DNA of 61,309 nucleotides from contig CANGXP010000006.1 in the NCBI GenBank assembly GCA_947457935.1, positions 1-61,309 of the forward strand, given 5' to 3'. Made by a program: the position numbers and the translations under genes. Position 1 is the stretch's first letter, and every line of letters begins with the position of its first letter. Below the pieces are notes generated by a model. It worked only from the letters and a program-made list of their open reading frames with translations. It ran no database searches and was not told the origin of the DNA. Shown here in pieces: positions 36,244-53,605 of this stretch. This DNA comes from Alphaproteobacteria bacterium (GTDB lineage Bacteria > Pseudomonadota > Alphaproteobacteria > JAJTHO01 > CANGXP01).

Positions 36244-36328
36244 TTGGGTTGTATACGGGTTTTAGGTTAGTCTGGCAAGGATTAGGCTATGGTTTACTAA
36301 GAGAATTATGTACGATGATACAAAAAGA

Positions 36329-36359: not shown

Positions 36360-36391
36360 TCACAAACAAACAACAAACAAAAAAGGAATTT

Positions 36392-36891: not shown

Positions 36892-38385
36892 ATGCCACAC
36901 ATAACCGTTCGTAAAAAATTATTTCTCATCAATGTATTGGCCGCTTTGGGCTTGAGCAGCTTATTTGGTATTCAATACCATAATTCTCAAGATACGTTGG
37001 TGCGTATCGCACAAGTGGAAACGCTACAAAATAATGTAGAAATATTAAATTTGCTGAAGAGCACGGTGAAAGAGCTGAATCTTGACGGCATGGATATTAT
37101 TGTCGATAGAGCAGACGGCGTTGTGATGCCAGAGAGAACACAAGCAATTACGGATAAAATAGACGTATTGTTTGCAAAGAAAAAGGAATTAGAGGCGGTT
37201 GCAAACGGCGCGGAACAAGCGGCGGCTATAACGCTTTTCAACATACAAGCGGCGGTTCTGCAAAAACTTTTGCAAGAAGATCTGCCCAACGCTGTTGTGG
37301 CGCAGGGCAAAGAACAAGGGGCACAAATATTTGCCGTGCTTGATGATAAAATTGATAACACTGTTACAGCGATGGCGGATGTTCTCGCGCCCCTCATTGT
37401 GAGTGCACAAAATGATATACACACCTATTTTACAGCAACGAGAAACAAGGCAAATGCCGTGTTGTTATGGTCAACAGGTGTGTTTTGTTTGATGCTGGTG
37501 GGGAAATTTTTGCTGTTGCATTTTATTGGTGTCAGTATTGTTAAGGGTATCAACAGATTGATACATCGGTTTGAACAACAGGCGGTGAACGTCTTTGGCG
37601 AATTATCAAATACGTCTGAAAAAATGAGTACCACCGCACAGATACTTAACCAGAGTGCAAGCCAAACATCGCTGCAATCCGCAACATTGTTTTCAACCGC
37701 CGAGGTAACCCACAATAATATGCATAACGTGGCGGCTGCCTCTGAAGAATTATATAGCACAACGGATGAAATTAAGCGCGTGATTGTTGAATCTGTAAGC
37801 ATTGCACGTGAAGCGATGGTGCAAGCGGAGACAACCACAGAGACAATGCACAAAATGTCGGTTTCCGCCAATGAAGTGAAAGAGGTGCTCGCGCTGATTT
37901 CTGCGATTGCAGAGAAAACAAATCTTCTTGCATTAAATGCCAGCATTGAAGCGATGCGTGCGGGGGATTTGGGTAAGGGCTTTTCCGTTGTTGCTAGTGA
38001 AGTAAAAAGTCTAGCAACGCAAACAGCGAATGCAACGCGTACTATTACAGATAAAGTTTATGACATTCAGTCGATTAGTAGCACGGCAGTAACCGCCATT
38101 AACGACATTCAAGCAACCATTAATAAAATAAACGATATTGCTTCGGTTATTTCTGCCGCCGTAGAAGAGCAGGGCGCTTCAACGCAAGAGATTGCGCGAA
38201 ATTGTAATGAAGTGGCAGCGGGATCGAAAGTTATTACGGAAAATATCAATGCATTGCAGGGCGTTGCGGGAGAGTCAAACGCCGCATCTGAGGGTGTATT
38301 GAGTGCTGTGTCAATACTGGAAGAGCAAACAAATCGTATGAAAATGAGTATTGATGCGTTTGTGAAAGGGTTGCGGGCAGCATAA
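36892..38385 (+). CDS. Methyl-accepting chemotaxis protein (transmembrane)
   Basis: 497-aa receptor. The first membrane helix is at about 10-26, followed by a helical periplasmic sensor of about 160 residues and a second membrane helix at about 187-212. The cytoplasmic signalling domain has the hairpin tip [24 protein letters not shown], the segment that binds CheW and CheA. A HAMP linker is not obvious. The sensor resembles simple four-helix bundles and its ligand is unknown. There is no C-terminal WxxF-type tether. It sits 79 bp upstream of the chemotaxis operon and may be transcribed separately. Confidence 0.93.
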   Translation: MPHITVRKKLFLINVLAALGLSSLFGIQYHNSQDTLVRIAQVETLQNNVEILNLLKSTVKELNLDGMDIIVDRADGVVMPERTQAITDKIDVLFAKKKELEAVANGAEQAAAITLFNIQAAVLQKLLQEDLPNAVVAQGKEQGAQIFAVLDDKIDNTVTAMADVLAPLIVSAQNDIHTYFTATRNKANAVLLWSTGVFCLMLVGKFLLLHFIGVSIVKGINRLIHRFEQQAVNVFGELSNTSEKMSTTAQILNQSASQTSLQSATLFSTAEVTHNNMHNVAAASEELYSTTDEIKRVIVESVSIAREAMVQAETTTETMHKMSVSANEVKEVLALISAIAEKTNLLALNASIEAMRAGDLGKGFSVVASEVKSLATQTANATRTITDKVYDIQSISSTAVTAINDIQATINKINDIASVISAAVEEQGASTQEIARNCNEVAAGSKVITENINALQGVAGESNAASEGVLSAVSILEEQTNRMKMSIDAFVKGLRAA

Positions 38386-38402
38386 AATGTATTTTTTTTC
38401 AT

Positions 38403-38414
38403 GGTGTTAACACC
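38403..38414. promoter_or_regulatory. Palindrome before the chemotaxis operon
   Basis: GGTGTTAACACC is a perfect 12-bp palindrome between the MCP stop and the first operon gene, about 50 bp before its ATG. TATAAAT follows at about 38435-38441. It could be an operator or a small terminator stem; it has no U-tract. Confidence 0.4.
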
Positions 38415-38464
38415 TCCTTAAAAAAATTTCGGTATAAATAACACCCATAAGTTGCAGCGAGATT

Positions 38465-38725
38465 ATGACCATACATTCAACCATAACACTACCCTCAACA
38501 TTAACGATTGAAAACGTCATGACGTTAACAGCGTTACTGCGGGATGCAAACGTACACGGAGACCCCTCTGTATCATGCGACGCAAGCAGCGTTGAGCTAA
38601 TGACGACGCCTGCAGCACAAGCATTGCTGGCGTGTCATAAAAATACCCCGCTTCAATTTGATAACCCTAGTCCCGCTTTCACCGCAACCTTGGCTGCGTT
38701 GGGCATGACCACCGCTTTTGCATAA
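38465..38725 (+). CDS. STAS-like small protein of the chemotaxis operon
   Basis: 86-aa soluble protein. The pattern of a beta strand (ITLPSTLTIENVMTLTALLRD), a second strand (SVSCDASSVELMTTPAAQALLACHK) and a terminal helix fits a small STAS fold of the kind that opens many alphaproteobacterial che operons. The usual DSSGL motif is replaced by ELMTTPAAQ, and Thr or Ser there could still be a phosphorylation site. It ends 13 bp before cheY. Confidence 0.7.
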   Translation: MTIHSTITLPSTLTIENVMTLTALLRDANVHGDPSVSCDASSVELMTTPAAQALLACHKNTPLQFDNPSPAFTATLAALGMTTAFA

Positions 38726-38738
38726 CGGAGAATACACC

Positions 38739-39107
38739 ATGGCAAAAAAAGCACTCACCGTTGACGATTCACGCACCATGCGCGAGATGGTTTCCTTCAC
38801 CCTAAAAGGGGCGGGCTATGAGGTCGTAGAGGCCGAAGATGGCAAAGATGCCCTTGTTAAAATCGCCGCCAATAAAGTGGATGTGGTGATCACCGATTTG
38901 AACATGCCCAACATGAATGGGTTTGAGCTGATTCGTGCATTGCGGGCTGATAGTAATTATAAATTTACGCCCATTTTGATGCTGACCACCGAAGGCGATG
39001 GCAGCAAAAAAGAAGAAGGCAAAGCGGCGGGTGCAACAGGCTGGATTGTCAAGCCATTTAACCCAGAAAAATTGGTTGAAGTGGTTAAAAAGGTTTGCCC
39101 ATGCTAA
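38739..39107 (+). CDS. cheY: Chemotaxis response regulator CheY
   Basis: 122-aa receiver domain with no output domain: TVDDSRTMREMVSFTLKGAG at the start, the phosphoacceptor aspartate in VVITDLNMPNMNG, the switch threonine in MLTTEGDG, and the lysine in GWIVKPFNPEKL. This is the diffusible signal to the flagellar switch. The ATG at 38739 has GGAG eight bases upstream; an upstream reading would overlap the STAS gene. Confidence 0.97.
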   Translation: MAKKALTVDDSRTMREMVSFTLKGAGYEVVEAEDGKDALVKIAANKVDVVITDLNMPNMNGFELIRALRADSNYKFTPILMLTTEGDGSKKEEGKAAGATGWIVKPFNPEKLVEVVKKVCPC

Positions 39108-39271
39108 GTGCAACATCCCTCAACCCCACCACAAAAAATATCCCCATTTTAGGATGGATTGGTCAGTTGTGGGCAGATGACACGCTGGAAACGCTTGCGG
39201 AAATTACGCAACCGCTTTCGTTGCCGTTGCCAAGATTCTTGAGGGAGGTGTTCCATGACAACGAACACTGA
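39101..39271 (+). CDS. Small 56-aa ORF between cheY and cheA
   Basis: The ATG overlaps the end of cheY by 7 bp, and the stop lies 14 bp inside cheA, so the ORF exactly fills the cheY-cheA gap. The product begins MLSATSLNPTTKNI, has the central segment WIGQLWADDTLETLAEI, and ends VFHDNEH. It has no family I recognise. The double overlap favours translation; otherwise the gap of 147 bp would be unusually long for this operon. Confidence 0.5.
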   Translation: MLSATSLNPTTKNIPILGWIGQLWADDTLETLAEITQPLSLPLPRFLREVFHDNEH

Positions 39272-41264
39272 TCTTGAACGCTTCAAACAAAGCTACATCA
39301 ACGAAAGCCTTGAATTGCTGGCGGAGATGGAAGAGCGGTTGTTGGATCTAGATCCTGAAACAGCCGATAACGAACAACTGAATGCGATTTTTCGCTGTGC
39401 CCATTCCATTAAAGGCGGGTCGGGCGCGTTTGGCTTAACCTATATCACCAATTTCACCCACGTGCTGGAAGCGTTATTAGATGCGATGCGCGAAGGCAAA
39501 GTTTTGCCAACACGGGATGCTGTCGATATTTTGCTCAAAGCAACAGACATTGTGCATCAGATGGTGCGTGCCGCGCAAGAGGGCACAACGCCCGCTACAA
39601 ACTTAGGCAAGGATATTTTAGAAAAACTGCAACAGTATGCCAGTCATACCCCCACCACAGAAACGGCTGCTTACGGTCTTTTTGACGACACCCCTGTTAC
39701 GGGAAACGCTGACCATACAACGTATTCTATTGTTTTTGCACCACACCTCAACCTGTTTGCTACAGGCAATGAACCGCTGTTGTTGCTGCAAGAGCTCGCA
39801 AAATTGGGTGATGCCACCATTGTTGCAGACACAACAAAAGTACCGAACTTAGACGCCCTTGATCCTGAGCAATGTTACTTGTCATGGAACATCACCCTTG
39901 TGACAGACAAATCCGTTGCCGCTATTAAAGAGGTGTTTGAGTTTGTTGAAGATGCGTGTGATCTGAGCGTTACAGCACAAGAAAAAGAAATACGTGTCGC
40001 TCGTGCGCCTACTGTAGACACGCAGAGCACAACAGAAACAGTCGTTAAAAAAGACGCGCAAAATGAGGCTAAAACCCCCGCCAGCGGCACCATTCGCGTT
40101 GACTTAGAAAAAGTTGATAAGCTCGTCAACATGGTGGGCGAATTGGTGATCACCGAGGCGATGGTGCGGATGCAAACGCGCACGCTGCCACAAGAACAAT
40201 TCTCTGATTTATTGCGCGGCGTTGATGCCCTTGCGCACCACATGCGGGAACTGCAAGAGGTGGTGATGTCCGTGCGGATGCAGCCTGTCAAATCTATTTT
40301 CTCCCGCTTGCCGCGTATTGTGCGCGATATTTCTACACAGCTTGGCAAAGACATTCGCCTTGTGGTTTCAGGCGAAAGCACCGAGGTGGACAAAACAGTG
40401 ATCGAACAGTTGGGCGATCCCCTTACCCATATGATTCGTAACTCGGCAGATCATGGGATTGAAACCCCCGAAAAACGTCTTGCTGCAGGCAAACCTGCAC
40501 AAGGCACGATTCATCTTTCGGCGGAACATCGCGGCGGACGGATTGTCATTGAAATTAGCGATGATGGCGCAGGCATTAACCGCGAGAAAGTGCTAAAAAA
40601 AGCCTTGGAAAAGGGCTTGGTTGCGGGCGATGGCAGTAGTCTCTCCCCCCAAGAAATTGACAACTTAATTTTCCATGCAGGATTTTCAACCGCTGATGTT
40701 GTCTCCAACATTTCAGGGCGTGGCGTGGGCATGGATGTGGTACGCCGCAACATTGAAGGCATGGGCGGGTTGGTGCAGGTGGTCAATCGCCCGTCACAAG
40801 GCTCAACTTTTACGGTCTCCCTGCCTTTAACGCTCGCTATTCTTGATGGCATGATTGTGCGGGTGGGCAATGAAAATTATATCATCCCGATTACGAGTAT
40901 TATTGAGACGCTCCGCCCGAAACAGGGCGAAGTGCGGCACGTTGAGGGGCACAAGGATGTGCTGAACGTGCGGGGGGAATTTATCCCCGTTATTTATCTC
41001 TATCAACTTTTCGGCATTCAAAATGCGGAGGCTGAACCCAGCCGTGCGCTGATTGTATTGGTGGAAAGCCGCAAAGGCAAAATGGGCATCGTGGTTGATG
41101 AATTGGTGGGACAACAACAAGTTGTCATCAAAAGTTTATCCGCGAACGCTGACCCTGTGGAGGGCATTTCAGGCGCAACCATTTTGGGTGATGGGAAAGT
41201 GTCCCTCATCTTGGAAGTGAATGATTTGCAGGGATTGGTGGGAAGAGAACAGAAGGCAGCATAA
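39255..41264 (+). CDS. cheA: Chemotaxis histidine kinase CheA
   Basis: 669 aa with the full set of CheA domains. P1 has the phosphorylated H50 in FRCAHSIKGGSGAFG. A middle region of about 160-260 is P2-like. P3 dimerisation covers about 280-345 (IRVDLEKVDKLVNMVGELVITEA). The P4 ATPase has its N box in HMIRNSADHGIETP, ISDDGAGINREKV, and GRGVGMDVVRRNIEGMGG. P5 at the C terminus (about 525-660) is CheW-like. It donates phosphate to CheY and CheB, and possibly to the REC-containing protein at 49499. Confidence 0.98.
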   Translation: MTTNTDLERFKQSYINESLELLAEMEERLLDLDPETADNEQLNAIFRCAHSIKGGSGAFGLTYITNFTHVLEALLDAMREGKVLPTRDAVDILLKATDIVHQMVRAAQEGTTPATNLGKDILEKLQQYASHTPTTETAAYGLFDDTPVTGNADHTTYSIVFAPHLNLFATGNEPLLLLQELAKLGDATIVADTTKVPNLDALDPEQCYLSWNITLVTDKSVAAIKEVFEFVEDACDLSVTAQEKEIRVARAPTVDTQSTTETVVKKDAQNEAKTPASGTIRVDLEKVDKLVNMVGELVITEAMVRMQTRTLPQEQFSDLLRGVDALAHHMRELQEVVMSVRMQPVKSIFSRLPRIVRDISTQLGKDIRLVVSGESTEVDKTVIEQLGDPLTHMIRNSADHGIETPEKRLAAGKPAQGTIHLSAEHRGGRIVIEISDDGAGINREKVLKKALEKGLVAGDGSSLSPQEIDNLIFHAGFSTADVVSNISGRGVGMDVVRRNIEGMGGLVQVVNRPSQGSTFTVSLPLTLAILDGMIVRVGNENYIIPITSIIETLRPKQGEVRHVEGHKDVLNVRGEFIPVIYLYQLFGIQNAEAEPSRALIVLVESRKGKMGIVVDELVGQQQVVIKSLSANADPVEGISGATILGDGKVSLILEVNDLQGLVGREQKAA

Positions 41265-41282
41265 CAGGTACGGGTTTTGGGT

Positions 41283-41336
41283 GTTGGGTATCGGCAAGAA
41301 TGTCCGTATCCCCACACCCGAACCCCGATACCCAAC
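41283..41336. repeat. Inverted repeat between cheA and cheW
   Basis: GTTGGGTATCGG (41283-41294) and CCGATACCCAAC (41325-41336) are perfect inverted arms that fill most of the 89-bp gap. The loop carries CGGCAAGAATGTCCG, and the general pattern resembles the stem at 44269-44304, so both seem to be members of one dispersed hairpin family. The operon evidently tolerates it, and it could reduce or protect the downstream message. Confidence 0.7.
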
Positions 41337-41353
41337 TATAAGGAGTACGAACA

Positions 41354-41866
41354 ATGACCGATACTTACGACAAAAACCGTGCTGATGGCACGCAAACCAT
41401 CGAGAACGCAGGGATTCCCCAAGAATTCTTGAGCTTCACGGTGGGCGACGCAGAATATGGCGTGGATATTATGATTGTCCGCGAGATTAAAGGCTGGACG
41501 GAGGTAACGCGCCTACCAAACTCGGTGGAGTATATGCGCGGCGTGATGAACCTGCGCGGGCTGATTATCCCCATTTTTGACTTAAGAGCGCGCTTTAACC
41601 AAGGCATGACAGAAGCACACGCAAAAAACGTGGTGATTATCATGGCCGTGGGCGAACGCAATATCGGGCTGTTGGTTGACACGGTTTCCGACATTCTGAC
41701 CGTCAACAACGATGACATCAAGCCCGCTCCCGAGACAGAAACAGCAAACGATGCCGACTATATCAACGGGTTAATCTCGCTGGAAAATCGCATGGTGGTG
41801 CTGCTCAATATCGAGAATTTGTTTGAAACGAAAATCATCGAAAGAAGTATCGCTGAAGCCGCCTAA
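41354..41866 (+). CDS. cheW: Chemotaxis coupling protein CheW
   Basis: 170-aa adaptor that links receptors to CheA. Motifs include FTVGDAEYGVDIMIVREIKGW, LPNSVEYMRGVMNLRGLIIPIFDLRARF (core YMRGVMNLRG) and a C-terminal YINGLISLENRMVVLLNIENLF. AAGGAG stands before the ATG. It is separated from cheA by the hairpin repeat and followed 40 bp later by a receptor gene. Confidence 0.97.
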   Translation: MTDTYDKNRADGTQTIENAGIPQEFLSFTVGDAEYGVDIMIVREIKGWTEVTRLPNSVEYMRGVMNLRGLIIPIFDLRARFNQGMTEAHAKNVVIIMAVGERNIGLLVDTVSDILTVNNDDIKPAPETETANDADYINGLISLENRMVVLLNIENLFETKIIERSIAEAA

Positions 41867-41906
41867 CCCTCTCTCATACATAAATTAAAACTTAAGGAGT
41901 TCTATC

Positions 41907-44249
41907 ATGTCTAAACTACCTATTCGCGTCAAATTGACCGCACTTTTTCTCGCCTTTGGCATGTTGCCATTGATAGCGTTTATGCCAGTTCTTTTTGGCA
42001 AATTGAATCACATTAAGGAAACCATCACGATTGAAAAACAGGAAGTCACAGCGCGTGAAGCAATCGTGTTACAGGATTTAAAGGAATTAAAAGAAATGCT
42101 TTGGCAAGACGTTGCAATTTCTGCCCTTGTAATTACAGGTTTGGGGATTATCATCGGTGGTTTTGCCGCAAGACCGTTACGTAAAGCAACGCTTGCCGCA
42201 CAAAAACTTGCTACGGGTGATTACTTAGTAGATGTTGGAAATCCTAAACGGGGAGATGAATTTGGAGACGTTTCGCGTGCTCTTAAAGATCTCTCGTTAG
42301 CTGTTGAAAAGAGTGTGCGTCTTGAAACAATGATTACCAGCTTATCTACGCCTGTGATGATGTGTGACAAAGATTTTAACATCACCTACGCGAACGATAT
42401 TTCTATTGCAACGCTTCGTACGCTAGAAAAACTGTTGCCTGTGAAAGCCGATAACATTGTTGGTGCTAATATTGATATTTTCCACAAAACACCTAGTCAC
42501 CAACGCGGTATGCTGCAAAGTATGAAATTGCCCCACAAGGCAGAATTTATGATTGGGGATGAGTGGTTATCGCTTACTGCTAACCCATTGCCAAGCCGTG
42601 ATGGCAGTTTCCAAGGGTCGTACGTGGATTGGAATGTGGTAACAGAACGCAAACGTGCGGATGAACAAAACACCGATTACGCAGGAAAAATGGCGGCAAT
42701 CAGCAAAACCCAAGCCGTGATTGAATTCAACATGGATGGCAGCATCATCACCGCTAACGAGAATTTCTTGCAAGCGATGATGTACAACTCTTTGGATGAA
42801 ATCAAAGGCAAACACCACAGCATGTTCGCAGATGCAGCCTACCGTGCAAGCCCCGACTATAAAGCATTCTGGGAATCCTTAAACCGTGGTGAAGCCAACA
42901 ACGGCGAATTCAAACGCATCAAGAAAAACGGGGAGGTCATCTGGTTACAAGCCATTTATAACCCGATTGCGGATGCGAACGGTAAGTTTGTGAAAGTCGT
43001 GAAATACGCAAGCGACATTAGCAAGCAAAAACTCGCCATCGAAGAAATCAACAACCTGATTGCCGGTGTGATCAAAGGCGATCTCTCTAACCGCATTAAC
43101 ACAGCGCCTTTCGAAGGTTTCTATCGCGATATGACAGACAGCATGAACAAGCTGATGGAAAGTGTTGATGCGCCTGTAAGTGCAGCCGTGGATGTTTTAA
43201 ATAGCCTGTCAGAAGGGGATTTAACACGCAGCATGGCGGGTGAGTATCAAGGTGCCTTCAATGAAATGCAAACCGCTCTGAACGGTACTATTGAGAAACT
43301 GTTTGGGATGGTGAAGCAGATTATCAAAGCGGCGCAAGCCGTGAATTCTGCCGCTACAGAAATTTCTTCTGGCAGCACAGACTTATCACAACGCACAGAA
43401 GAGCAAGCCTCTTCTTTGGAAGAAACAGCGGCATCGATGGAAGAAATCACGGGTACGGTGAAGCAAAACTCACAAAATGCCTCAACAGCAAACGAGTTGT
43501 CTGGTAAAGCCAGCGCCGTTGCCGCAGAAGGCGGACGTGTGGTGGATGAAGCGGTGAGTGCGATGGGCAGCATTGAACGCTCATCACAAAAAATCTCTGA
43601 CATCATCGGCGTGATTGATGAAATCGCGTTCCAAACCAACCTTCTTGCACTGAACGCGGCTGTTGAAGCAGCGCGTGCAGGCGAAGTGGGCAAAGGTTTT
43701 GCGGTGGTAGCTTCAGAAGTACGCTCTCTTGCAGGTCGTTCGGCTTCCGCTTCTAAAGAGATTAAAGCCCTCATCAGTGAAAGTGCGCAACAAGTAAAAA
43801 CAGGGGCGCAACTGGTTAACCAATCGGGTGAAAGCCTGAAAGGGATTGTCGATTCCGTGAAGCAAGTCACCAACATTGTTGCGGAAATTGCGTCAGCCAG
43901 CGCAGAACAGGCAACGGGAATTGATGAAATCAACACCGCCATTACGCAAATGGATGAAGTAACCCAGCAAAACGCAGCTTTGGTGGAAGAAAACACCGCC
44001 GCTGCACAATCCATGGTGGAACAAGCACAAGAGCTAGAACGCCTCATGAGCTTCTTCACCATTGAGGAAGGCAATGAGCGCAACAGCGCGTTCACGCCAA
44101 AAGCTGTGGTGAAAAGCAAGCCAGCACTCGTGCAAAAGGCGGCGAATACATCCAGCAATCGCCCTGTTAAGGCACCTGCCAAACCTGCGAAAAAGGTTGC
44201 AAGCGGTGGTGGCCGTGGTGGGTATGATGCAGGGTGGGAGGAGTTCTAA
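41907..44249 (+). CDS. PAS-containing methyl-accepting chemotaxis protein
   Basis: 780-aa receptor. Two N-terminal membrane helices (about 8-30 and 65-88) have a loop too short for a periplasmic sensor. HAMP-like and two PAS domains follow (about 130-250 and 262-375; NADIA-type segments such as [21 protein letters not shown] and [17 protein letters not shown]). A long MCP domain has the tip [24 protein letters not shown]. The C terminus ends GWEEF, close to the NWETF tether for CheR/CheB docking. The sensor is therefore probably internal (redox or light via PAS cofactors); the first PAS lacks obvious heme or flavin markers. It is the principal receptor encoded inside the operon. Confidence 0.95.
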
Positions 44250-44268
44250 GAACGGGTAACGAGGATGG

Positions 44269-44304
44269 GGTTTCAGGTGTCGGCAGCAATGCATACCTGA
44301 AACC
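44269..44304. repeat. Hairpin after the PAS-MCP gene
   Basis: GGTTTCAGGT (44269-44278) and ACCTGAAACC (44295-44304) are perfect inverted arms. The loop GTCGGCAGCAATGCAT shares CGGCA-x-x-AATG with the hairpin at 41283-41336. No U-tract follows, so it is a dispersed hairpin and not a clear terminator. Confidence 0.65.
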
Positions 44305-44369
44305 TCACCTGTCCCCATACCCTAGCCCCGTCAGGGCTGTTAATTTCTGATGGAACTGCCGAAATTAAG

Positions 44370-44454
44370 TCTGGATACCAGCTTTCGCTGGTAATACCCA
44401 CCACAGGCAGTCGCCACGAGAGTAGCGAATTACCAGCGAAAGCTGGTATCCAGA
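44370..44454. repeat. Perfect 26-bp inverted repeat between the PAS-MCP gene and cheR
   Basis: The arms 44370-44395 (TCTGGATACCAGC... start) and 44429-44454 are perfect reverse complements of 26 bases with a 33-base spacer, in the 282-bp gap between the receptor and cheR. Each arm itself contains the smaller palindrome ACCAGC-TTTC-GCTGGT. It belongs to the GGTATCCAG/CTGGATACC type of dispersed repeat. The gap has no gene. Confidence 0.85.
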
Positions 44455-44531
44455 ACAGGGAATATCACAGGTGAGATATTATCTTTTTGAGAAATTAACC
44501 GCCCTACTAAACCCGTAACCTGAAAAATTGT

Positions 44532-45380
44532 ATGTCAAACTCCGCCCTTTCCGCTGACCGTGAATTCGCTTTTAGCGAGGATAACTTCCGTTTTCTTACT
44601 CAATGGGTGGGTAAAAACACAGGGATTGTACTTGCGGATCACAAACGCGATATGGTCTATTCGCGTCTTGCAAGACGGCTGCGTGCGTTGCAGCTTGATA
44701 GCTTTGCCGCGTATTGCGCCCTCATTCAAAGCCCAGAAGGCGAGGCAGAGTTGGGAAATTTGGTGAATGCCATCACCACGAATTTGACGCATTTCTTCCG
44801 TGAGGGGCATCACTTTGAGCATTTGCTACAAGTGCTGCAAGGCATTGCGGCAAAACCGAACAGCCTTAAGAAATTACGCTTATGGTCAGCAGGGTGTTCA
44901 ACAGGCATGGAAGCCTATTCCATCGCGATGACACTGCAAGAAGCCCTCCCCAATATCAATCAATGGGATGTCAAAATTCTGGCAACCGATATTGATACCA
45001 ACGTCTTGGAAACAGGACAACGGGGCGAATATGCTCTTTCGGCATTGGAAGATGTGCCCGCGGCCTATCAGAAAAAATATCTTGAGCCAGTAAAGGCAGG
45101 TGCCAGTAAGGGACAAGTGAACGAGGCAACCCGCGCATTGGTTTCTTTTAAGCGCCTAAACCTGTTAGAATCGTGGCCGATGCAAGGCAAGTTTGATGTG
45201 ATTTTTTGCCGCAATGTGGTGATTTATTTTGACAAACCGACACAACGCAAAATGTTTGGGCGCATGGCGGAGTTGATGCAACCCAAGGGCTGGCTTTATA
45301 TTGGTCATTCGGAAAATCTGTTTAATATTTGCGATGCGTTTACCTTAGAGGGGCGGACGATTTACCGTAAAAACACATGA
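44532..45380 (+). CDS. cheR: Chemotaxis protein methyltransferase CheR
   Basis: Methylates glutamates of MCPs with S-adenosylmethionine. The N-terminal helical domain (NFRFLTQWVGKNTGIVLAD) is followed by the SAM fold with LRLWSAGCSTGMEAYSIAM, a DIDTNVLETGQRGEY segment, and FDVIFCRNVVIYFDKPTQRKM. 282 aa is normal. The last codons overlap the start of cheD (ATGA). Confidence 0.97.
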   Translation: MSNSALSADREFAFSEDNFRFLTQWVGKNTGIVLADHKRDMVYSRLARRLRALQLDSFAAYCALIQSPEGEAELGNLVNAITTNLTHFFREGHHFEHLLQVLQGIAAKPNSLKKLRLWSAGCSTGMEAYSIAMTLQEALPNINQWDVKILATDIDTNVLETGQRGEYALSALEDVPAAYQKKYLEPVKAGASKGQVNEATRALVSFKRLNLLESWPMQGKFDVIFCRNVVIYFDKPTQRKMFGRMAELMQPKGWLYIGHSENLFNICDAFTLEGRTIYRKNT

Positions 45381-46030
45381 GTGTAAAGCTTGCCCCACCC
45401 GCCAATGAATCGGATCGCCGTCGCACGCCACCCGCAAAAATGCCCTTTGCGGCGAAGGACAACAAGCGCTATTTCGACGAGAAAGAGGGCGTGACGGTTG
45501 TCAAATTGTTCTCTGGCGATTGGCATGTATCAGGCACAGAACCTGAAATGCTCATGACAATTCTTGGCTCTTGTGTTGCGGCCTGCATTCGCGACCCCCT
45601 ATTGGGCATTGGCGGCATGAACCATTTCCTCCTTCCAGGGGATGAAAGTAGCTGCATGAACAGCGATGCCGCACGCTATGGTGTGTTTGCCATGGAAAGC
45701 CTTATCAACGGGTTATTGAAAGCAGGGGCACGCAAAGAACGTCTGGAAATCAAAGTGTTTGGCGGCGGCAATGTGATTAATAATTCTGCCTGCATTGGCT
45801 CGAAAAATGCCGCATTTATCAGGGAATTTCTCCGTAAAGAAGGATTGCGCATCGCCAGCGAAGATCTAGAAGGGGATCTCCCCCGCAAGCTGCATTATTA
45901 CACGCAAACAGGCAAAGTGATGATGCGAAAATTGAATCGTCAAGCGGATACGAAAGTTATCATGGAAGAACAACGTTTCAAAGAAAGCTTAACGATCAAA
46001 CCGCCTGTTGGCGATATTGAGTTATTTTAA
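45377..46030 (+). CDS. cheD: Chemoreceptor glutamine deamidase CheD
   Basis: Deamidates receptor glutamines. Core motifs of CheD are present: the catalytic cysteine in TILGSCVAACIRDPLLGIGGMNHFLLP with the following histidine, DAARYGVFAMESLINGLLKAGA, and the KVFGGGNVI segment. An N-terminal extension of about 40 residues and a C-terminal tail that contains GKVMMRKL make it 217 aa. It overlaps cheR by 4 bp and is 9 bp from cheB. CheD can also help CheC-type phosphatases, but no cheC is present here. Confidence 0.95.
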   Translation: MSVKLAPPANESDRRRTPPAKMPFAAKDNKRYFDEKEGVTVVKLFSGDWHVSGTEPEMLMTILGSCVAACIRDPLLGIGGMNHFLLPGDESSCMNSDAARYGVFAMESLINGLLKAGARKERLEIKVFGGGNVINNSACIGSKNAAFIREFLRKEGLRIASEDLEGDLPRKLHYYTQTGKVMMRKLNRQADTKVIMEEQRFKESLTIKPPVGDIELF

Positions 46031-46039
46031 GGGGGCATT

Positions 46040-47095
46040 ATGAAAAAAATCACTGTCCTTGTTGTTGATGATTCAGCGTTTATTCGCCAGATGTTCAGGG
46101 ATATTCTGAATAGCCAACCTGATATTGAGGTGCTTGACACAGCGCACGATCCGCTCGATGCGCGGGAAAAAATTAAACAGCTTAACCCTGATGTGGTGAC
46201 GCTGGATATTGAAATGCCGAAAATGGACGGTCTGTCCTTTTTAGAGAAAATCATGACGCTGCGCCCGATGCCTGTCATTATGGCCTCATCGCTCACCCAA
46301 AAAGGGGCAGAGGCAACGCTTCGTGCGTTAGAATTAGGCGCGGTGGATTATGTCAGTAAACCCACAACGGGGCAAAATCGCCAAACGATTGGGGCGTTAG
46401 CTGAAGAACTTGCTGAAAAGGTGCGTATGGCAGCCAAAGCTAAGGTGCATCATCATAAAGCCCGTTTAGTGCCCGCTACGCCGCAACTTGTGTCCTATAA
46501 TCCTGCGGGCGTGCCTGCAAAACGGATTATTGCCATCGGCGCCTCCACAGGCGGGGTGGAAGCATTGCGCGAAATTTTTGTGCGCTTGCCCGCCAATGTG
46601 CCCCCCATCATCATGACACAACATATGCCCGAACATTTCACCGCCTCCTTTGCAGCGCGCCTGAATAGTCTTTCCGCCGTCACTGTGATGGAAGCCAAAA
46701 ATCACCAACGCCTTGAAAAAGGGCATGCCTATTTAGCGGCAGGGAATGTGCATTTAAAGCTTGCCCGTGTGGGGGGAGAGTATGTTTGTAAAGTAGAAGA
46801 TGGTGCGCCTGTGAGCGGGCATCGTCCCTCTGTCGATGTGTTATTTCATTCTGTTGTGGAAGCAGCAGGAAAAGAGGCGGTTGGTGTTATTCTCACAGGC
46901 ATGGGCAAGGATGGTGCCTTGGGTTTAAAAGCCATGCGGGATATTGGATGCCATACGTTAGGACAAAATGAAGCAACCTGTGTGGTTTATGGGATGCCGC
47001 AAGCAGCCTTTAAAGTAGGAGCGGTGGAAAAAGAATTGCCCCTTACAGAGATACCAGCGGCAATGTTGAAATTGTGCGAGCTGGGAGGGGCATGA
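46040..47095 (+). CDS. cheB: Chemotaxis methylesterase CheB
   Basis: Receiver domain with phosphoacceptor D56 in VVTLDIEMPKMDG and lysine in YVSKPTTG, a linker, and the C-terminal methylesterase with the catalytic serine in IAIGASTGGVEAL, histidine in MTQHMPEHFT and aspartate in TGMGKDGALGLKAM. It removes methyl groups from receptors. 351 aa is normal. The next gene begins one base after its stop. Confidence 0.97.
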   Translation: MKKITVLVVDDSAFIRQMFRDILNSQPDIEVLDTAHDPLDAREKIKQLNPDVVTLDIEMPKMDGLSFLEKIMTLRPMPVIMASSLTQKGAEATLRALELGAVDYVSKPTTGQNRQTIGALAEELAEKVRMAAKAKVHHHKARLVPATPQLVSYNPAGVPAKRIIAIGASTGGVEALREIFVRLPANVPPIIMTQHMPEHFTASFAARLNSLSAVTVMEAKNHQRLEKGHAYLAAGNVHLKLARVGGEYVCKVEDGAPVSGHRPSVDVLFHSVVEAAGKEAVGVILTGMGKDGALGLKAMRDIGCHTLGQNEATCVVYGMPQAAFKVGAVEKELPLTEIPAAMLKLCELGGA

Positions 47096-47096
47096 A

Positions 47097-49187
47097 ATGA
47101 GTATTGCTTCTAAACAGCATAATGCGACAGAAAAAGAAATCACGACTATTCTGCAAGAACTTGCCACCCATAGCGCGAAAAGTATTTCTCGGCTTGAAGA
47201 ACTGCAACAAGAGCTTCCTGCTGCCGCTTGTGTTGTGGAGCAAGCGGCGTTGAAATTAAGCGAGCAATTTAAAACGCTCACCACAGCAGCACAGGAACAG
47301 CGTGATATTTTACAAGACATGACGGCAGTAAAAAAATCTTTTACAATTGATGATGAAAAATTGGTTTTGAAAGACTTTGTTAGCTTGCTGAGCAAAACGC
47401 TCAATGAAGCAATCGAGCAAATATTATTCATCTCCAAGAAGTCTATGCTCATGGTGTATAGCATGATTGATGCGATTAAGAATTTGGATAAAATTGACAG
47501 GTTCGCAAAAAATATTCAACGCATCACCATGCAAACAAATACGCTTGCAGTGAATGCGAAAATTGAAGCATCAAAAGTTGGCGAAATAGGTGGTGGGTTT
47601 CTTGTTGTTGCTGGAGAAGTTTATGGCATTTCTACAGAAATAGCGGAGCTTTCAGAAAGAATTCACAACCGTATTCATCATATCAAAGGAACTACACAGA
47701 CAAGTTATAAAATATTACAAGAGGTGGCAACGATTGATATTAGCGATAATATTGTTGTGAAGCAGCGTCTCAATAATTTTATGGAAAACCTCTTAGAGCA
47801 GAGTGATAGCTTCCAAGAAATGATACAATCTGCCGCCATGACAGCAGGCGCACTCTCTGAAACAATTTCTTCCATGGTTATGGAGCTGCAATTTCAAGAT
47901 CGTAATTCCCAGATATGTGAGAATTCTGTGGGGATTATATCGCAGCATGGTGCTTCTTTAAAAACGTGGCTCTTGCATTTACAGGGCTATAGTGCGCAAA
48001 AATCAACGGGTTCATTACAAAAATATTTAGTGCAGCAAGGGGGGATACCACAACCCCCAAAAACATGGTTTGGGCGGCGAAAATCAACGCCTTCGGCGGT
48101 AATATCAGAAATTCATACACCGCCAGAAACAGACAATAAAGAAATGAATGCAGCAGCGTTGCTGCAAGATTTTCAAGCCTTAAAGCAATCAGAAGGCATA
48201 GCACTGCAGTTGTTAACAGAGTTGTTGCCTGAATCTGCGAGCACTGTAAAAGCCAGCACAATTAAACTAAACCAAAATTTCCAAGAATTATTAGCAGGGG
48301 CAGTGCAGCAGGGAAAAATTATTCAGCAAATGGCGGATACGGCGGGAATGTTGAAATCGGGGAATCGGGAAGTTACCCTGCAAGACTTCACCAACATGCT
48401 CTATGAAATGATTGATTATTCGGTAGAGAAAATTTTATTCGTCGCAAAAAAAATCATGTCCATGCTGATGAGTATGGATGCCTCGATAGAGGCGTTAAAA
48501 GAGATACAGCAGTTTACAGGTGGCATTCAAAAAATTACCGCCAAAACAAACATTTTGGCAATGAACGCAACCATTGAAGCAATGCGTGCGGGACAAAATG
48601 GCTTAAGTTTTGCTGTTGTTGCAAAAGAGGTGCGTAATATCTCTCTCGCAATATCCTCTCTTTCTTTAGATATTGATCAGACGATTGTTGCCATTTCTAC
48701 AGATATTCAGGCAAGCCATGATATTTTAAAAGAAATTTCGAGCGCAGACATGACAGAAAATATTCTTGTTAAGGAAAAAATTGATGGATGTATGCACGAA
48801 TTATTGCAACAAAATATACGTTTTAAAGACGCTATGTGTGAGGCGGCAATAACCTCCAATAATATTGTGGATAGTATAAAAGATATGTCTGTGGGCATGG
48901 ATTTTTATCGCGGCAACACAGAAAAAGTAGAGTCTATTGTGCATGTTCTGCGGGAGCAATCGAGGCTTCTCACGCGTTTAGATAATGCTATTTTGATGAT
49001 TGTTCCGCAAAGTACCCCTTCTGTAGAAGCTTTAGAGCAACACGCACAAACAATCGCACAGGGCATTAAATTAGGCGACATAAAACAGCGCTATGCAGAA
49101 AAACTGAGTCAGCACGGCATCACCGTCCTTGCCTCTCAGGATGCCAGCACCGCAAGCGCTGCAGAAGATGACATAGAGCTTTTCTAA
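47097..49187 (+). CDS. Soluble tandem MCP-like protein (two signalling halves)
   Basis: 696-aa protein without membrane helices or sensor domain, formed by two homologous halves of about 300 residues (1-300 and 350-650) with 340-residue periodicity. Each half has a membrane-free helical lead-in (LPAAACVVEQAALKLSEQF and LPESASTVKASTIKLNQNF), then an MCP-like hairpin tip (TMQTNTLAVNAKIEASKVG at about 144-162, and TAKTNILAMNATIEAMRAG at 481-499), then a tail (IDISDNIVVKQRLNNFM and ADMTENILVKEKIDGCM). The first half ends LQFQDRNSQ (264-272), reminiscent of the CheZ phosphatase motif FQD-x-TGQ. The second half keeps only a decayed form. It may act as a soluble receptor array, an adaptor, or a phosphatase. 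Confidence 0.85.
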   Translation: MSIASKQHNATEKEITTILQELATHSAKSISRLEELQQELPAAACVVEQAALKLSEQFKTLTTAAQEQRDILQDMTAVKKSFTIDDEKLVLKDFVSLLSKTLNEAIEQILFISKKSMLMVYSMIDAIKNLDKIDRFAKNIQRITMQTNTLAVNAKIEASKVGEIGGGFLVVAGEVYGISTEIAELSERIHNRIHHIKGTTQTSYKILQEVATIDISDNIVVKQRLNNFMENLLEQSDSFQEMIQSAAMTAGALSETISSMVMELQFQDRNSQICENSVGIISQHGASLKTWLLHLQGYSAQKSTGSLQKYLVQQGGIPQPPKTWFGRRKSTPSAVISEIHTPPETDNKEMNAAALLQDFQALKQSEGIALQLLTELLPESASTVKASTIKLNQNFQELLAGAVQQGKIIQQMADTAGMLKSGNREVTLQDFTNMLYEMIDYSVEKILFVAKKIMSMLMSMDASIEALKEIQQFTGGIQKITAKTNILAMNATIEAMRAGQNGLSFAVVAKEVRNISLAISSLSLDIDQTIVAISTDIQASHDILKEISSADMTENILVKEKIDGCMHELLQQNIRFKDAMCEAAITSNNIVDSIKDMSVGMDFYRGNTEKVESIVHVLREQSRLLTRLDNAILMIVPQSTPSVEALEQHAQTIAQGIKLGDIKQRYAEKLSQHGITVLASQDASTASAAEDDIELF

Positions 49188-49199
49188 GGGAATTTTACC

Positions 49200-49502
49200 A
49201 TGCAACTGGAAAAACGAATTGAGGATAATCAATCAACAATTACGATGTCAGGGGGATTTACTTTTTCTGATAACGCGGTGTTTCGAGATGTTATTACGCT
49301 GATTACGAGTAAGGCTTCAAGAGCCGTGAATATTGATGTGCGGGGCTTAAATTTCATTGATTCTTCAGGGTTGGGCATGCTGCTGTTAGCGCGTGACGAA
49401 GCAAAAAATCATAACGTCATTTTGACGCTTTCTAGAGCAGTAGGGCAGGTGCAAGATATGTTCGAGGTGGCACAATTTGAGATTTTATTTGCGATTAAGT
49501 GA
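49200..49502 (+). CDS. STAS-domain anti-sigma-factor-antagonist-like protein
   Basis: 100-aa SpoIIAA/RsbV-type protein. The phospho-acceptor motif FIDSSGLGMLLLARDEA places the modifiable serine at 55 or 56, and the DVRGL strand before it is characteristic. It overlaps the next gene by 4 bp (ATGA), whose first domain is an RsbW-like kinase and whose last is an RsbU-like phosphatase. The two products are thus very likely partners: phosphorylation and dephosphorylation of the STAS serine would switch binding. Confidence 0.92.
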   Translation: MQLEKRIEDNQSTITMSGGFTFSDNAVFRDVITLITSKASRAVNIDVRGLNFIDSSGLGMLLLARDEAKNHNVILTLSRAVGQVQDMFEVAQFEILFAIK

Positions 49503-51445
49503 TGCATGCTTTTCAGCGATATTGCGAGGATAAAGAAGGCGGCAAAACATTGCTGCGTTGTGTGTATGAGGAACAGGCAGACGGATTGCGCGCTGCGCGA
49601 ACATTCACAGAGGATAAAGAAATAGTGCGGTTGTTGGCTTTTAGAACGCCTCCAACACAACAGCAATATAATTTTTTGTTGCCGCATTATGATGTTTTCT
49701 GGGAGCTTGCTATTGGCGAAGATTTGCCCGAAGTATTGCCGCCTTTTAGTCACAAGCCACATCGAGATAAAAGTTTTGTTTTATCCTTAAGGACAGACAC
49801 CTGTCATCGCCTGCCGATTGCGGCAATGGTAACGAAGCATTTGGCACAAAAACTATTGCTCGGGGCTATTGCAAAAAGCCAATTACAAACCGTTCTTCAA
49901 GAAGGTTTAACGAATGCAGTTATCCACGGGAATCTAGAAATTCACCAGCGTTTCCACGCACAAAAAGATTTTTTTGCTTATTGCGAGCATGTAGCATCGT
50001 GTTTGAATGATCCTATGCTTGCAGCAAGGCGAATTGATGTATTTGTCTGTTGGCAAGGGGATGCACTGGAGATTTGTCTCAGTCATGTGGGCGAGCCGTT
50101 TAAGCACTCTATACAACAAGAAAACTCAATATATCAAGGACGTGGTATGGCAGTGATGCAGACGTGTGGTGCCACCGTGCAAATGGAAGACGGGCAAAAA
50201 GACCTTTGCCTGCAACTCAATTTAGGGACTATGGGCGCGACATCAGTTCCGAACAAAAACGAGGCTCTCTATCGTAAAGCTTTTAAAAAGGCGTTATTAG
50301 GGGCGAAAATCTTGTTGGTTGATGATCAAGAGTTTAACATTTTTATTCTACAAGAGATTCTGGATTTACACGATTTACATAACGTGATTATTGCCAAAAA
50401 TGGGCAAGAAGCGTTGGAAAAAACCATTCAGGAACAACCTGATCTTGTGATTATTGATATGTCTATGCCCGTGATGGATGGATATGCCTACTGCACGCAA
50501 GTGCGGCAACTCCCTATATTTACAGCATTGCCCATACTTGCTTTAACGGCACAAACAGATTCTGAACAGCGACGGCTTGCGTTGCAGGTAGGCGCAACGG
50601 ATTTGCTGAGTAAGCCTCTTTACCCAATAGAATTATTCGAGCGCGTGTCAATTCATTTAGAGAAAACCGTGTTGCTCAATAGTTTGGAAGAATACCGAAA
50701 AAATGTTGAGGCTGATTTTGAGGCAGCGCGGGATATGCAAGCGGTATTGATGCCATCAGAAACTTATATTGCCACTATCACAACAGCGTATAATATTGAG
50801 ATAGGCGCGCATTTTGAGCCAAGCTACAACATCGGCGGGGATTTTTGGCATGTATATTCCCTTGATCAACATCGCGTTGCCTGCATAATGATAGACTTTT
50901 CAGGGCATGGCGTGAGTGCCGCCTTGAATGTTTTTCGGCTGCACGCGCTGTTACAAAATCTTCCCCTCAAAGAGTATACAGCAGGAGAGTTACTAACGGT
51001 ATTAAACGCGCAGCTTCATTCTTTGTTATCAGCAGGGCAATTTGCCACAGCCTTTTATAGCATTATTGATACGCGTGCGGATATATTAAGCTATGCCGTG
51101 GCAGCAACGCCCGCGCCGCTTTTATTCACACCCGCGCAACAACGCTATACACATATTCGTGGTTCAGGCGTGCCGTTGGGTGTTGATAAGGATACCGTTT
51201 ATCCAACACAGCAAATGCCGTTTTACAAAGGGGATAGCTTGCTGCTGTATAGTGATGCTCTTATAGAAACGCCTAATCAACATGGCGTGATGATAACGCC
51301 CCAAGATGTTGAAGCGGCTTTTCGCAAGATTTCCTATAACAGTATACCACAAGATTATTTTGCAACGCTCTTAGCGTTGTTTCGCGCCCATGCTGCTGGT
51401 GATATCACCGACGATTTAACCCTTACTTTGTACTCGAGAGTGTAG
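49499..51445 (+). CDS. RsbW-like ATPase / receiver / SpoIIE-type PP2C triple-domain protein
   Basis: 648 aa in three modules. First comes a GHKL kinase of the RsbW type: N box QEGLTNAVIHGN at 134-145 with E135 and N139, and a G-box-like YQGRGMAVM at 212-220; the usual DNG motif is weak at 180-195 (CWQGDALEICLSH). Then a receiver domain (268-390): DD at 275-276, phospho-D320 in VIIDMSMPVMDG, K372 in LLSKPLYP. Last, a PP2C/SpoIIE phosphatase (about 420-648): D448 in IGGDFWHV, D466 in IDFSGHGVSAAL, and D-rich TDDLTLTLYS at the C terminus. It could both phosphorylate and dephosphorylate STAS proteins, with the receiver as the control point. It overlaps the STAS gene (ATGA). Confidence 0.9.
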   Translation: MMHAFQRYCEDKEGGKTLLRCVYEEQADGLRAARTFTEDKEIVRLLAFRTPPTQQQYNFLLPHYDVFWELAIGEDLPEVLPPFSHKPHRDKSFVLSLRTDTCHRLPIAAMVTKHLAQKLLLGAIAKSQLQTVLQEGLTNAVIHGNLEIHQRFHAQKDFFAYCEHVASCLNDPMLAARRIDVFVCWQGDALEICLSHVGEPFKHSIQQENSIYQGRGMAVMQTCGATVQMEDGQKDLCLQLNLGTMGATSVPNKNEALYRKAFKKALLGAKILLVDDQEFNIFILQEILDLHDLHNVIIAKNGQEALEKTIQEQPDLVIIDMSMPVMDGYAYCTQVRQLPIFTALPILALTAQTDSEQRRLALQVGATDLLSKPLYPIELFERVSIHLEKTVLLNSLEEYRKNVEADFEAARDMQAVLMPSETYIATITTAYNIEIGAHFEPSYNIGGDFWHVYSLDQHRVACIMIDFSGHGVSAALNVFRLHALLQNLPLKEYTAGELLTVLNAQLHSLLSAGQFATAFYSIIDTRADILSYAVAATPAPLLFTPAQQRYTHIRGSGVPLGVDKDTVYPTQQMPFYKGDSLLLYSDALIETPNQHGVMITPQDVEAAFRKISYNSIPQDYFATLLALFRAHAAGDITDDLTLTLYSRV

Positions 51446-51447
51446 TT

Positions 51448-52083
51448 ATGTTTATTCAATCTCTTGATCCTGTTGTTCTTGAGCAAATTCTTAACGCCGC
51501 AAATGGTGGTATTGCAATTTCAGACGCGGAACAGCCTGACAACCCTCTAGTTTATGTGAACAGTGGTTTTGAACGGCTAACAGGCTATTTAACTAGTGAA
51601 ATTGAGGGAAGAAATTGCCGTTTTCTGCAAGGTGCAGAAACAGATCCCGCAACGGTACAAAAATTACGGCAATCAATTGAGAAAAAGCAAACAGTGTCTG
51701 TTGATATTGTGAATTACAAAAAAAGTGGAGAGAAATTCTGGAATCATCTTTCCATGGCACCATTATTCGATCGCAATGGGAATGTGCGATATTTTATTGG
51801 TGTGCAATATGACATTACACCGCTGAAAGAAAAGCAGATCGCTCTTGAAGAACAAACGGTATTTTTAGAAGCCGCCCATTTAAAACGAGAAAAAGCGATT
51901 GAAGGGTTAACGAATCACTTGCGTGATTCTATCGCTGCCTGTGATAGCCTATCAACATTGATGTTACTAAAAAAAGACTCAGGGCAAGACAAGATGAATA
52001 TCTATCTTGAGCAGATCAATCACACAGTGCGGCAAATGACCCATGTATTAGATGGTATTTTACTGGACTTGCGCCAAAATTAA
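51448..52083 (+). CDS. LOV-domain blue-light photoreceptor protein
   Basis: 211-aa short LOV protein. Residues 13-125 are a PAS/LOV core in which the flavin-adduct cysteine is C57 in EGRNCRFLQG. The other FMN ligands are also present: N89 (IVNYKKSG), N99 (FWNHLSM) and Q120 (GVQYDIT). This is a complete set for a photoactive LOV domain. The C-terminal 80 residues are helical (coiled coil at about 128-155, then a bundle to 211) and lack a histidine-kinase ATPase, so output must be by contact with another protein. It is the last gene of the chemotaxis operon, 2 bp after the PP2C gene, and convergent with the gcv operon. Confidence 0.93.
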   Translation: MFIQSLDPVVLEQILNAANGGIAISDAEQPDNPLVYVNSGFERLTGYLTSEIEGRNCRFLQGAETDPATVQKLRQSIEKKQTVSVDIVNYKKSGEKFWNHLSMAPLFDRNGNVRYFIGVQYDITPLKEKQIALEEQTVFLEAAHLKREKAIEGLTNHLRDSIAACDSLSTLMLLKKDSGQDKMNIYLEQINHTVRQMTHVLDGILLDLRQN

Positions 52084-52087
52084 ACGT

Positions 52088-53602
52088 CTATTTCTGCCAC
52101 CTGAGCACAGGCTTCCTTGCCGCTGCTGTCTCATCAGAACGGGTGCGCGGTGCGGTTTGCGGCGCATTTTTGAATAGTGCCACATTACCTGCTTTGGCTT
52201 CCGCCACCAATTCTTTCATCGCAATAATGAACGCATCTAATGTTTGTTTGCTTTCGGTTTCGGTGGGTTCAATGAGCATTGCGCCTTGCACGACCAGCGG
52301 GAAATACATAGTCATTGGGTGAAAACCCTTGTCAATCATGGCTTTGGCGAAATCTAACGTGGTTATGCCCTTATTTTTTAAGAAGCGTTCATCGGCGAGC
52401 ACTTCATGCATACAAATGCCGTCAAATGAGAGGGTGAGGTCATTTGCAAGGTTTTTTCGGATATAATTTGCATTGAGCACGGCATCCGTAGAAGCTTGTT
52501 TTAAGCCATCACTGCCCATGGTCATCATATAGGCAAGGGCACGAACGAACGTGCCGAATTGTCCTTGAAAGGCTTTAATGCGACCTAATGGGGCATCGGT
52601 TTCTTTTAAAGTATACTGCCCATTTTCCTGCACAATATGGGGAAGGGGGGCAAACGGCGCAAGTGCTGCTGATAGAGCAACGGGCCCACTGCCCGGCCCG
52701 CCGCCGCCATGCGGCGTGGAATACGTTTTATGTAGGTTAATATGCATGGCATCAATGCCCAAATCAGCAGGGCGCACTTGCCCTGAAATGGCGTTAAAGT
52801 TCGCGCCATCACAATAAAGATATGCACCGATTGCATGGAGTTTATCAGCAATTTCTTTGAGGGCAGGCTCGAACAACCCACAGGTGTTGGGGTTGGTAAT
52901 CATGGCGGCGGCAACATCGTTTGAGAGGGCTTCTGTAAAAGCTGCCACATCCACTGTGCCATCGGCGCGGGCGGGAATGGCTTTGACGGTAAAGCCGCAA
53001 GCAGCGGCCGTTGCGGGATTGGTGCCGTGAGCCGATTCAGGCACAAGCACGATAGAGCGATGTTCCCCCCGTGCTTCCAACGCTGCTTTGATTGCCATCA
53101 TGCCGCATAGTTCCCCATGCGCCCCTGCCGCAGGGGAAAACGCAATGGCAGGCATCCCTGTAATTGTTTTTAGCCAATGACAGAGTGTGTCCATCACCTC
53201 TAACGCCCCTTGGACGGTTGAAAGCGGTTGTAGCGGGTGAATGTTGGCAAAACCGCTCAGACGCGCCACCTTTTCATTAAGGCGCGGATTATGCTTCATG
53301 GTACACGAGCCAAGCGGATAAAACCCACTATCAATACTATAATTCTTTTGGCTTAAACGGGTATAGTGGCGAACTACTTGGGGTTCGGATATATTGGGTA
53401 AGGGTAGGGGGCTGGTTCGCGTCATGCTACCAAGGCGTTGTTTTACAGGCGGCACATTGGGAAAATCTACGCCCACTGCGCCGTCATTATTCAATTCAAA
53501 TATTAAGGGTTCATCTCGCCACTCTTCTGTTGCTTGCTGGGCGGTTAGAGGAAGTGTTACAAGGTGTGAGCTATCAGACACAGCATTGGCAAAGGTACTC
53601 AT
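52088..53602 (-). CDS. gcvPB: Glycine dehydrogenase (decarboxylating) subunit 2, GcvPB
   Basis: C-terminal half of the P protein of glycine cleavage. The PLP-lysine is in [21 protein letters not shown], with other markers [24 protein letters not shown]-like (core [13 protein letters not shown]), [15 protein letters not shown] and [13 protein letters not shown]. 504 aa and the split from GcvPA are typical of bacteria with the two-subunit form. The gene is last in the gcv operon; its stop lies 4 bp from that of the LOV gene. Confidence 0.97.
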   Translation of the reverse strand: [504 protein letters not shown]

Positions 53603-53605
53603 AAC

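Follow-up and report, generated by a model that had tools for sequence, protein, structure and literature searches.

In gamma- and betaproteobacteria, the F7 chemosensory clusters of the "stage 1" type have the gene order STAS, cheY, cheA, cheW, aer2-like, cheR, cheD, cheB, mcpA-like, STAS, serine phosphatase (Ortega et al. 2020, PMC7184735), and of their two receptors the Aer2-like one carries the CheR tether x-[HFYW]-x2-[HFYW], while the McpA-like one does not (PMC7184735). A non-flagellar second output of F7 arrays is a hypothesis already in print (PMC7184735; PMC9855816), and what F7 clusters with a partner switch do has yet to be settled even for Vibrio cholerae (PMC7184735). In Shewanella, the F7 locus che1 holds the CrsR/CrsA partner switch, which controls RpoS (PMC9855816; PMC6482189), and in Vibrio fischeri the phosphorylation of SypA is controlled by SypE in biofilm control (PMC10120452). 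Here, we compare these systems with a locus of an Alphaproteobacteria bacterium (assembly GCA_947457935.1, a 1.83-Mb draft in 72 contigs). The window, i.e., the whole stretch of DNA that was analysed, comprises 61,309 nucleotides of contig CANGXP010000006.1, and the locus consists of 13 open reading frames (ORFs), all on the + strand and spanning 38465-52083 (Table 1), in which che genes are followed by a partner-switching module (an anti-sigma-factor antagonist, STAS2, and a fusion of RsbW-like, receiver [REC], and PP2C phosphatase domains) and by the gene of a LOV photoreceptor. Domain calls were based on Pfam and NCBIfam, and structures on an AlphaFold model and a PDB fold search.

The window cluster is probably the alphaproteobacterial counterpart of an F7 stage 1 cluster, and its core is not new. 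The stage 1 order, known from V. cholerae cluster III and Methylomicrobium alcaliphilum, is matched gene for gene, down to the two STAS genes and the serine phosphatase at the end, except that cheW occurs once instead of twice. Since stage 1 has two cheW-like genes, we call the cluster a counterpart that has the stage 1 order and do not file it as stage 1. The likeness extends to the receptors, where the Aer2-like tail (GWEEF) fits the CheR tether pattern and the McpA-like tail (DIELF) does not, and to a further che system encoded at a separate site. Besides the single cheW, the window differs by having RsbW fused to REC-PP2C, a terminal LOV gene, and an McpA-like receptor that is internally duplicated (halves 34% identical, E = 4e-45), as well as by its class, Alphaproteobacteria versus the gamma- and betaproteobacteria of Ortega et al. 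2020. The best NCBIfam model for CheA is that of the enteric CheA, PRK10547 (E=2e-181, 605 bits, below the cut-off), and in a CheA tree the protein grouped with relatives of the class that have the same gene order. Stage 1 organisation also goes with a tall membrane array and a separate F6 system; here, the other che system is found on contig C27 (L199 7295-12998) and comprises cheA (with a C-terminal REC domain), cheW, cheY, cheB, and cheR; flagellar genes, fliG and fliF-type, are also present in the genome.

The association between the che core and the partner-switch genes was followed through a class sample of 386 genomes. With the window CheA as query, 41 genomes of the class sample were retrieved at E <= 1e-110, and 35 of those CheA loci were inspected for neighbouring genes, with the distal reach set to 13 kb downstream of cheA. 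Within this distance, STAS2 and REC-PP2C genes were identified in 14 of the 35 loci, and likewise in a named locus (L117), with RsbW-type N-boxes in or beside most of the module-bearing clusters, either separate or fused. The same gene order recurs across the class and in Aerophototrophica crusticola, a named alphaproteobacterium; the CheA of this species nests among those of the class in the tree. Given that the order is conserved across the class, a chance placement of the module beside the che genes was rejected, and the view of the preliminary description of this DNA that the partner-switch genes belong to the chemosensory operon is borne out, as they are conserved members of this operon type. 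In the CheA tree, several deep branches carry the module, and it is absent beside cheA in the nearest relatives of the window (G110 and G115), which suggests an old presence with repeated loss or dispersal. The window CheA (with L082 of G110 and L083 of G115) groups with other taxonomic orders and not with the genomes of its own order, G002 and G003, a pattern that points to either a transferred che core or hidden paralogy.

The fused form has a different distribution. Full-length RsbW-REC-PP2C fusions (~18 in the sample) occur mostly outside che clusters, often adjoining a STAS gene, and only two of them, those of the window and of G083, lie in a full che cluster. The fusion is, therefore, a general partner-switch protein, and a check of the neighbourhoods of the distal genes gives a divided answer: the fusions mostly occur without che genes, whereas F7 clusters regularly contain these domains in the form of separate genes. 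The two best named relatives of the window fusion are alphaproteobacterial, which, together with the placement of the A. crusticola CheA, fits an origin in Alphaproteobacteria better than the gammaproteobacterial one that was also considered. No relatives of the fusion were found among viral contigs. A contig scan seeded by one generic receiver motif returned 80 loci, mostly unrelated response regulators, with three relevant ones (L116, L117, and L121). In L121, a proteobacterial che cluster of the metagenome-assembled genome C1.bin.36, a membrane phosphatase (7383-9818) has PP2C, then RsbW-like, then REC domains and is encoded near two CheD-like genes, another combination of che and partner-switch genes.

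On the output side, STAS2 has the phosphorylatable motif DSSGLG, with the DS kept in 17 of 17 aligned rows, while STAS1, aligned with the STAS1 proteins of F7 clusters, lacks the Asp-Ser phosphorylation motif. The fusion has the tripartite architecture of the SypE/CrsR type, with RsbW-like, REC, and PP2C domains in one protein adjoining a STAS protein, and its PDB fold matches include Pseudomonas RssB (REC-PP2C), the RsbU-RsbW protein Rv1364c, and SiaA. In the alignments, D275, D276, D320, and K372 of the REC domain are conserved, as are D448, D466, D586, D638, and D639 of the PP2C domain, with the metal ligands among them. The RsbW part is less well preserved: HATPase_c_2 was matched below the gathering score in the Pfam scan (E = 3.5e-4, 21 bits), and although the motif scan located the N box (QEGLTNAVIHGN) and G2 (GRGMAV), the G1 box reads LSHVGEPF versus DxGxGF/Y in most relatives, the G1 Asp being gone. 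The kinase domain thus does not have a full set of intact GHKL ATP-boxes (N box and G2 kept, G1 HVGEPF). A similar erosion of G1 is seen in G003 (KDFGEKP) and G002 (KDFGDPQ), genomes of the window's own taxonomic order and the exceptions among the che-linked clusters, which otherwise keep DxGxGF/Y intact. The G1 Asp is part of the GHKL ATP box, and its loss is taken, from what is known of the family, as a sign that normal ATP binding by the fused RsbW domain is unlikely.

An intact stand-alone RsbW-like protein (G1 KDEGKGF) is encoded on contig C18, directly after an McpA-like gene. In a comparison of HATPase_c_2 scores it reaches 41.1 bits, the fusion having 24.5 against a cut-off of 27.4. 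The McpA-like neighbour (29% identity, E=1e-22) is a short soluble receptor, and the pair (L201 5583-7385) lies on a different contig from the F7 cluster. Judging from these motifs, we infer that the fusion would be chiefly the phosphatase arm of the switch and the C18 protein the kinase arm. The preliminary description had noted that STAS/RsbW/RsbU proteins switch by serine phosphorylation; with a G1 box lacking its Asp, the fusion may be the phosphatase arm alone. Compared with CrsR-CrsA of the Shewanella oneidensis F7 locus che1, the window likewise has REC, PP2C, and RsbW-like domains in one protein plus a STAS protein, inside an F7 locus; however, the order in CrsR is REC-PP2C-kinase and that of the window fusion kinase-REC-PP2C, and the window further differs by the eroded ATP box of the kinase, the lack of a recognised RpoS, and the presence of LOV. 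With SypE-SypA (PMC10120452) it shares both the kinase-REC-PP2C order and the separate single-domain STAS protein, differing in the eroded kinase box and in the location within a che operon.

The LOV gene is the only unusual addition, not seen in any other operon of this type examined. Its product has the motif GRNCRFLQG with the photoactive Cys, the Asn and Gln positions of the flavin pocket are present, and it is matched by the NCBIfam model YtvA_fam (E = 1e-47). In the AlphaFold model, the core (pLDDT, the per-residue model confidence, of about 95) leads into an extended coiled coil and a helical hairpin (pLDDT of about 70-80). Its closest structure in the PDB, matched over ~200 columns with the hairpin among them, is that of YF1 (4gcz), an engineered LOV-histidine kinase. 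Where LOV hybrid kinases have the H box SHELRTPL, the aligned sequence here is TNHLRDSI, with Asn at the phospho-His position, and the protein ends after the hairpin without an ATPase domain. A role as a light-driven kinase was rejected because both the H-box His and the ATPase domain are missing. Thus, by its motifs and predicted fold the protein appears photochemically complete, with a hairpin resembling a dimerization and histidine phosphotransfer (DHp) domain that may serve for docking. The photoactive core and the dimerising coiled coil are shared with YtvA and the LOV histidine kinases (YF1, Brucella LOV-HK), and the DHp-like hairpin with the latter; in contrast to these proteins, it is short (211 aa) and has no phospho-His, ATPase, or STAS domain. 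None of the LOV matches in the class sample and in a phylum sample of 387 genomes was seen beside an F7 cheA, no LOV motif was found in the other che loci examined, and in the open-access literature, covered mostly at title and abstract level, no counterpart of the LOV and F7 combination was noticed. Because LOV has no conserved association with F7 clusters, light as a further input, as proposed in the preliminary description, comes down to one adjacency. In another genome of the phylum, a LOV-PP2C fusion (L247 1450-2682) links light directly to a phosphatase.

Taken as a whole, we consider it probable that the locus is an F7 stage 1 counterpart with an output running from CheA through REC and PP2C to STAS2, an opposing kinase encoded on C18, and a docking LOV protein. 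Phosphate from an array of the Aer2-like PAS/HAMP receptor, CheW, and CheA would reach CheY, CheB, and, most likely, the REC domain of the terminal phosphatase as well; this last transfer is plausible. Phosphorylation of REC would gate the PP2C domain, which in turn would dephosphorylate STAS2 at the Ser of DSSGLG, and STAS2, once dephosphorylated, would associate with a partner of the RsbW type, with a change in gene expression as the outcome. The kinase acting in the opposite direction would most likely be the C18 RsbW-like protein, because the fused RsbW domain has lost its G1 Asp. The LOV protein would be a blue-light-sensing dimer whose output, a degenerate DHp hairpin unable to carry phosphate, most likely works through docking; a plausible site is the REC domain encoded next to it, because DHp hairpins bind REC domains. 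The more specific version, in which CheA phosphorylates REC and LOV docks there in a light-dependent manner, making the phosphorylation state of STAS2 depend on both light and receptor occupancy, seems to us quite unlikely in this full form. The partner-switch genes, the REC acceptor Asp, and the PP2C metal ligands are conserved, in support of the preliminary description. Its array with a second, non-flagellar output is a published hypothesis for F7 systems, and the idea is therefore not new.

Several points weigh against the reading as a whole. The module is missing beside cheA in the closest CheA relatives, G110 (64% identity) and G115 (60%), and the che core can therefore work without it. 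No sequence test ties CheA to REC specifically, and another kinase could feed this domain. With its kinase motif eroded, the fusion is not a complete switch, and the C18 protein is linked to it as a candidate kinase by motif and neighbourhood only. The LOV adjacency is a single case, which keeps the light input at the level of a hypothesis. Finally, of the five sigma-factor matches, four were read as RpoD, a second sigma-70-type factor (59241-60152, in the window), and two ECF-like ones, the match on C49 was not identified, and no RpoS was recognised among the five.

It is possible, if short of probable, that the cluster has a working partner switch and that the LOV gene is an unrelated passenger between the fusion gene and gcvPB, whose product acts elsewhere. 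The absence of LOV beside any F7 cheA in both genome samples and from the other che loci examined speaks for such a passenger; however, the LOV gene begins 2 bp past the stop codon of the fusion and in the same direction, favouring co-translation, and a degenerate DHp hairpin would need a partner, with REC domains, the usual partners of DHp, being encoded in the same operon. The output itself could also be of another kind, the main one being flagellar via CheY and the STAS/RsbW/PP2C proteins an accessory that tunes array assembly or the expression of flagellar genes and not a stress response. Che4 of Azospirillum brasilense belongs to the F7 class. It is an alphaproteobacterial motility system (PMC6759762) and, as such, speaks for a flagellar output, which would also agree with the fliG and fliF-type genes and with the absence of the module beside cheA in the closest relatives. 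The motor could, however, be driven by the second che cluster, the one on C27, and we regard this explanation as somewhat unlikely.

The eroded G1 box, together with its counterparts in G003 and G002 and the closest relatives without a module beside cheA, can also be seen as decay, the fused RsbW being dead and the module a remnant heading for loss as in G110 and G115. Against this, the DS of STAS2 and the catalytic residues of REC and PP2C are intact, the reading frames are open, and an intact RsbW is retained on C18, so that decay of the switch appears improbable. Returning to an F7 counterpart with a phosphatase-driven STAS2 output, what is new here is the terminal LOV gene and the fused, half-eroded switch, the remaining interpretation being largely anticipated in print. 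That F7-type clusters of a further class also retain the module as a rule makes a stronger case for a shared non-motor output beyond the gammaproteobacteria. The combination of a fused kinase with a broken ATP box and an intact orphan kinase elsewhere leads to a sharp prediction of which part writes and which erases the STAS mark and, if LOV really acts on the switch, the window variant offers light as a handle that is absent from other clusters.

The layout of the locus agrees with the preliminary description in that the 13 co-directional ORFs are present, with Pfam backing each identity except that of the 56-aa ORF. All listed ORFs exist, but this one is probably not a gene: no counterpart was found in the cheY-cheA gap of relatives, and its status as a conserved small protein was rejected on that account. 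The distal junctions, described earlier as overlapping or within 15 bp, measure -4 (cheR/cheD), +9 (cheD/cheB), +1 (cheB/mcpA), +12 (mcpA/STAS2), -4 (STAS2/fusion), and +2 bp (fusion/LOV). The proximal spacing is looser, with 89 bp between cheA and cheW, 40 bp between cheW and aer2, and 282 bp between aer2 and cheR. Within this last gap lies a perfect inverted repeat, each arm being 26 nt long. Its 18-nt core is found 28 times in identical form across the genome, so that the repeat is probably a repetitive element that was inserted here. These copies are often paired ~54 bp apart, as in a REP- or MITE-like family. Since a 282-bp gap with a genome-wide repeat splits the operon, a single transcript for all 13 ORFs is not certain, and the scans for promoters (32 found versus 27 expected) and terminators (30 versus 21), both near chance, leave the operon structure undecided. 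An Rfam scan of 36000-54000 returned no RNA family.

Table 1. Features of the chemosensory and partner-switch locus, in window coordinates
Feature	Position	Strand	Evidence and remarks
Transmembrane methyl-accepting chemotaxis protein (MCP), 497 aa	36892..38385	+	Pfam MCPsignal E=1e-27; two hydrophobic segments; ends 79 bp before the cluster and may or may not belong to it
STAS1, first anti-sigma-antagonist-like gene	38465..38725	+	Pfam STAS_2 E=1e-10; alignment to the STAS1 proteins of further F7 clusters; TTP in place of the DS motif
cheY	38739..39107	+	Pfam Response_reg; ATG at 38739, ORF list begins at TTG 38718
56-aa ORF, overlaps cheY and cheA	39101..39271	+	No Pfam match; probably not a gene
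cheA, probably F7-type, with Hpt domain	39255..41264	+	Pfam Hpt, H-kinase_dim, HATPase_c, CheW; NCBIfam; tree
cheW, single copy	41354..41866	+	Pfam CheW E=7e-37
Aer2-like receptor: two transmembrane segments, HAMP, PAS, HAMP, MCPsignal, C-terminal GWEEF	41907..44249	+	Pfam (HAMP/PAS/HAMP_2/MCPsignal); NCBIfam Aer2 E=6.5e-153, below cut-off; tail; hydrophobicity
Palindromic repeat pair, 26-nt arms, aer2-cheR gap	44370..44454	no strand	Repeat search
cheR	44532..45380	+	Pfam CheR E=7e-63
cheD, tail DIELF	45377..46030	+	Pfam CheD E=2.5e-28; tail comparison
cheB	46040..47095	+	Pfam CheB_methylest E=1.5e-61
McpA-like soluble receptor, tandem, tail DIELF	47097..49187	+	Pfam MCPsignal in two stretches; self-comparison of halves
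STAS2 anti-sigma antagonist, DSSGLG	49200..49502	+	Pfam STAS E=9e-11; alignment
RsbW-like + REC + PP2C fusion, 648 aa	49499..51445	+	Pfam HATPase_c_2, Response_reg, SpoIIE; alignment; motif scan; model and PDB fold search
LOV photoreceptor, 211 aa	51448..52083	+	Pfam PAS_9; NCBIfam YtvA_fam; alignment; model

The tails of CheD and McpA were compared between the window and its relatives (L075, L082-L115, and L117). A C-terminal [IV][ED]LF is found in 22 of 28 CheD and 20 of 21 McpA proteins of the class; it does not occur in Aer2, CheA, CheB, CheR, CheW, STAS2, or PP2C of these clusters, and a pattern search of this genome found no further ORF of real size ending in it. A conserved McpA tail was recorded as unexplained by Ortega et al. 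2020 (PMC7184735), and the tail common to CheD and McpA was nowhere noticed in the literature covered. Because CheD retains the tail in several clusters without the partner-switch module, the shared ending suggests that CheD and McpA may have a common docking partner among the core Che proteins.

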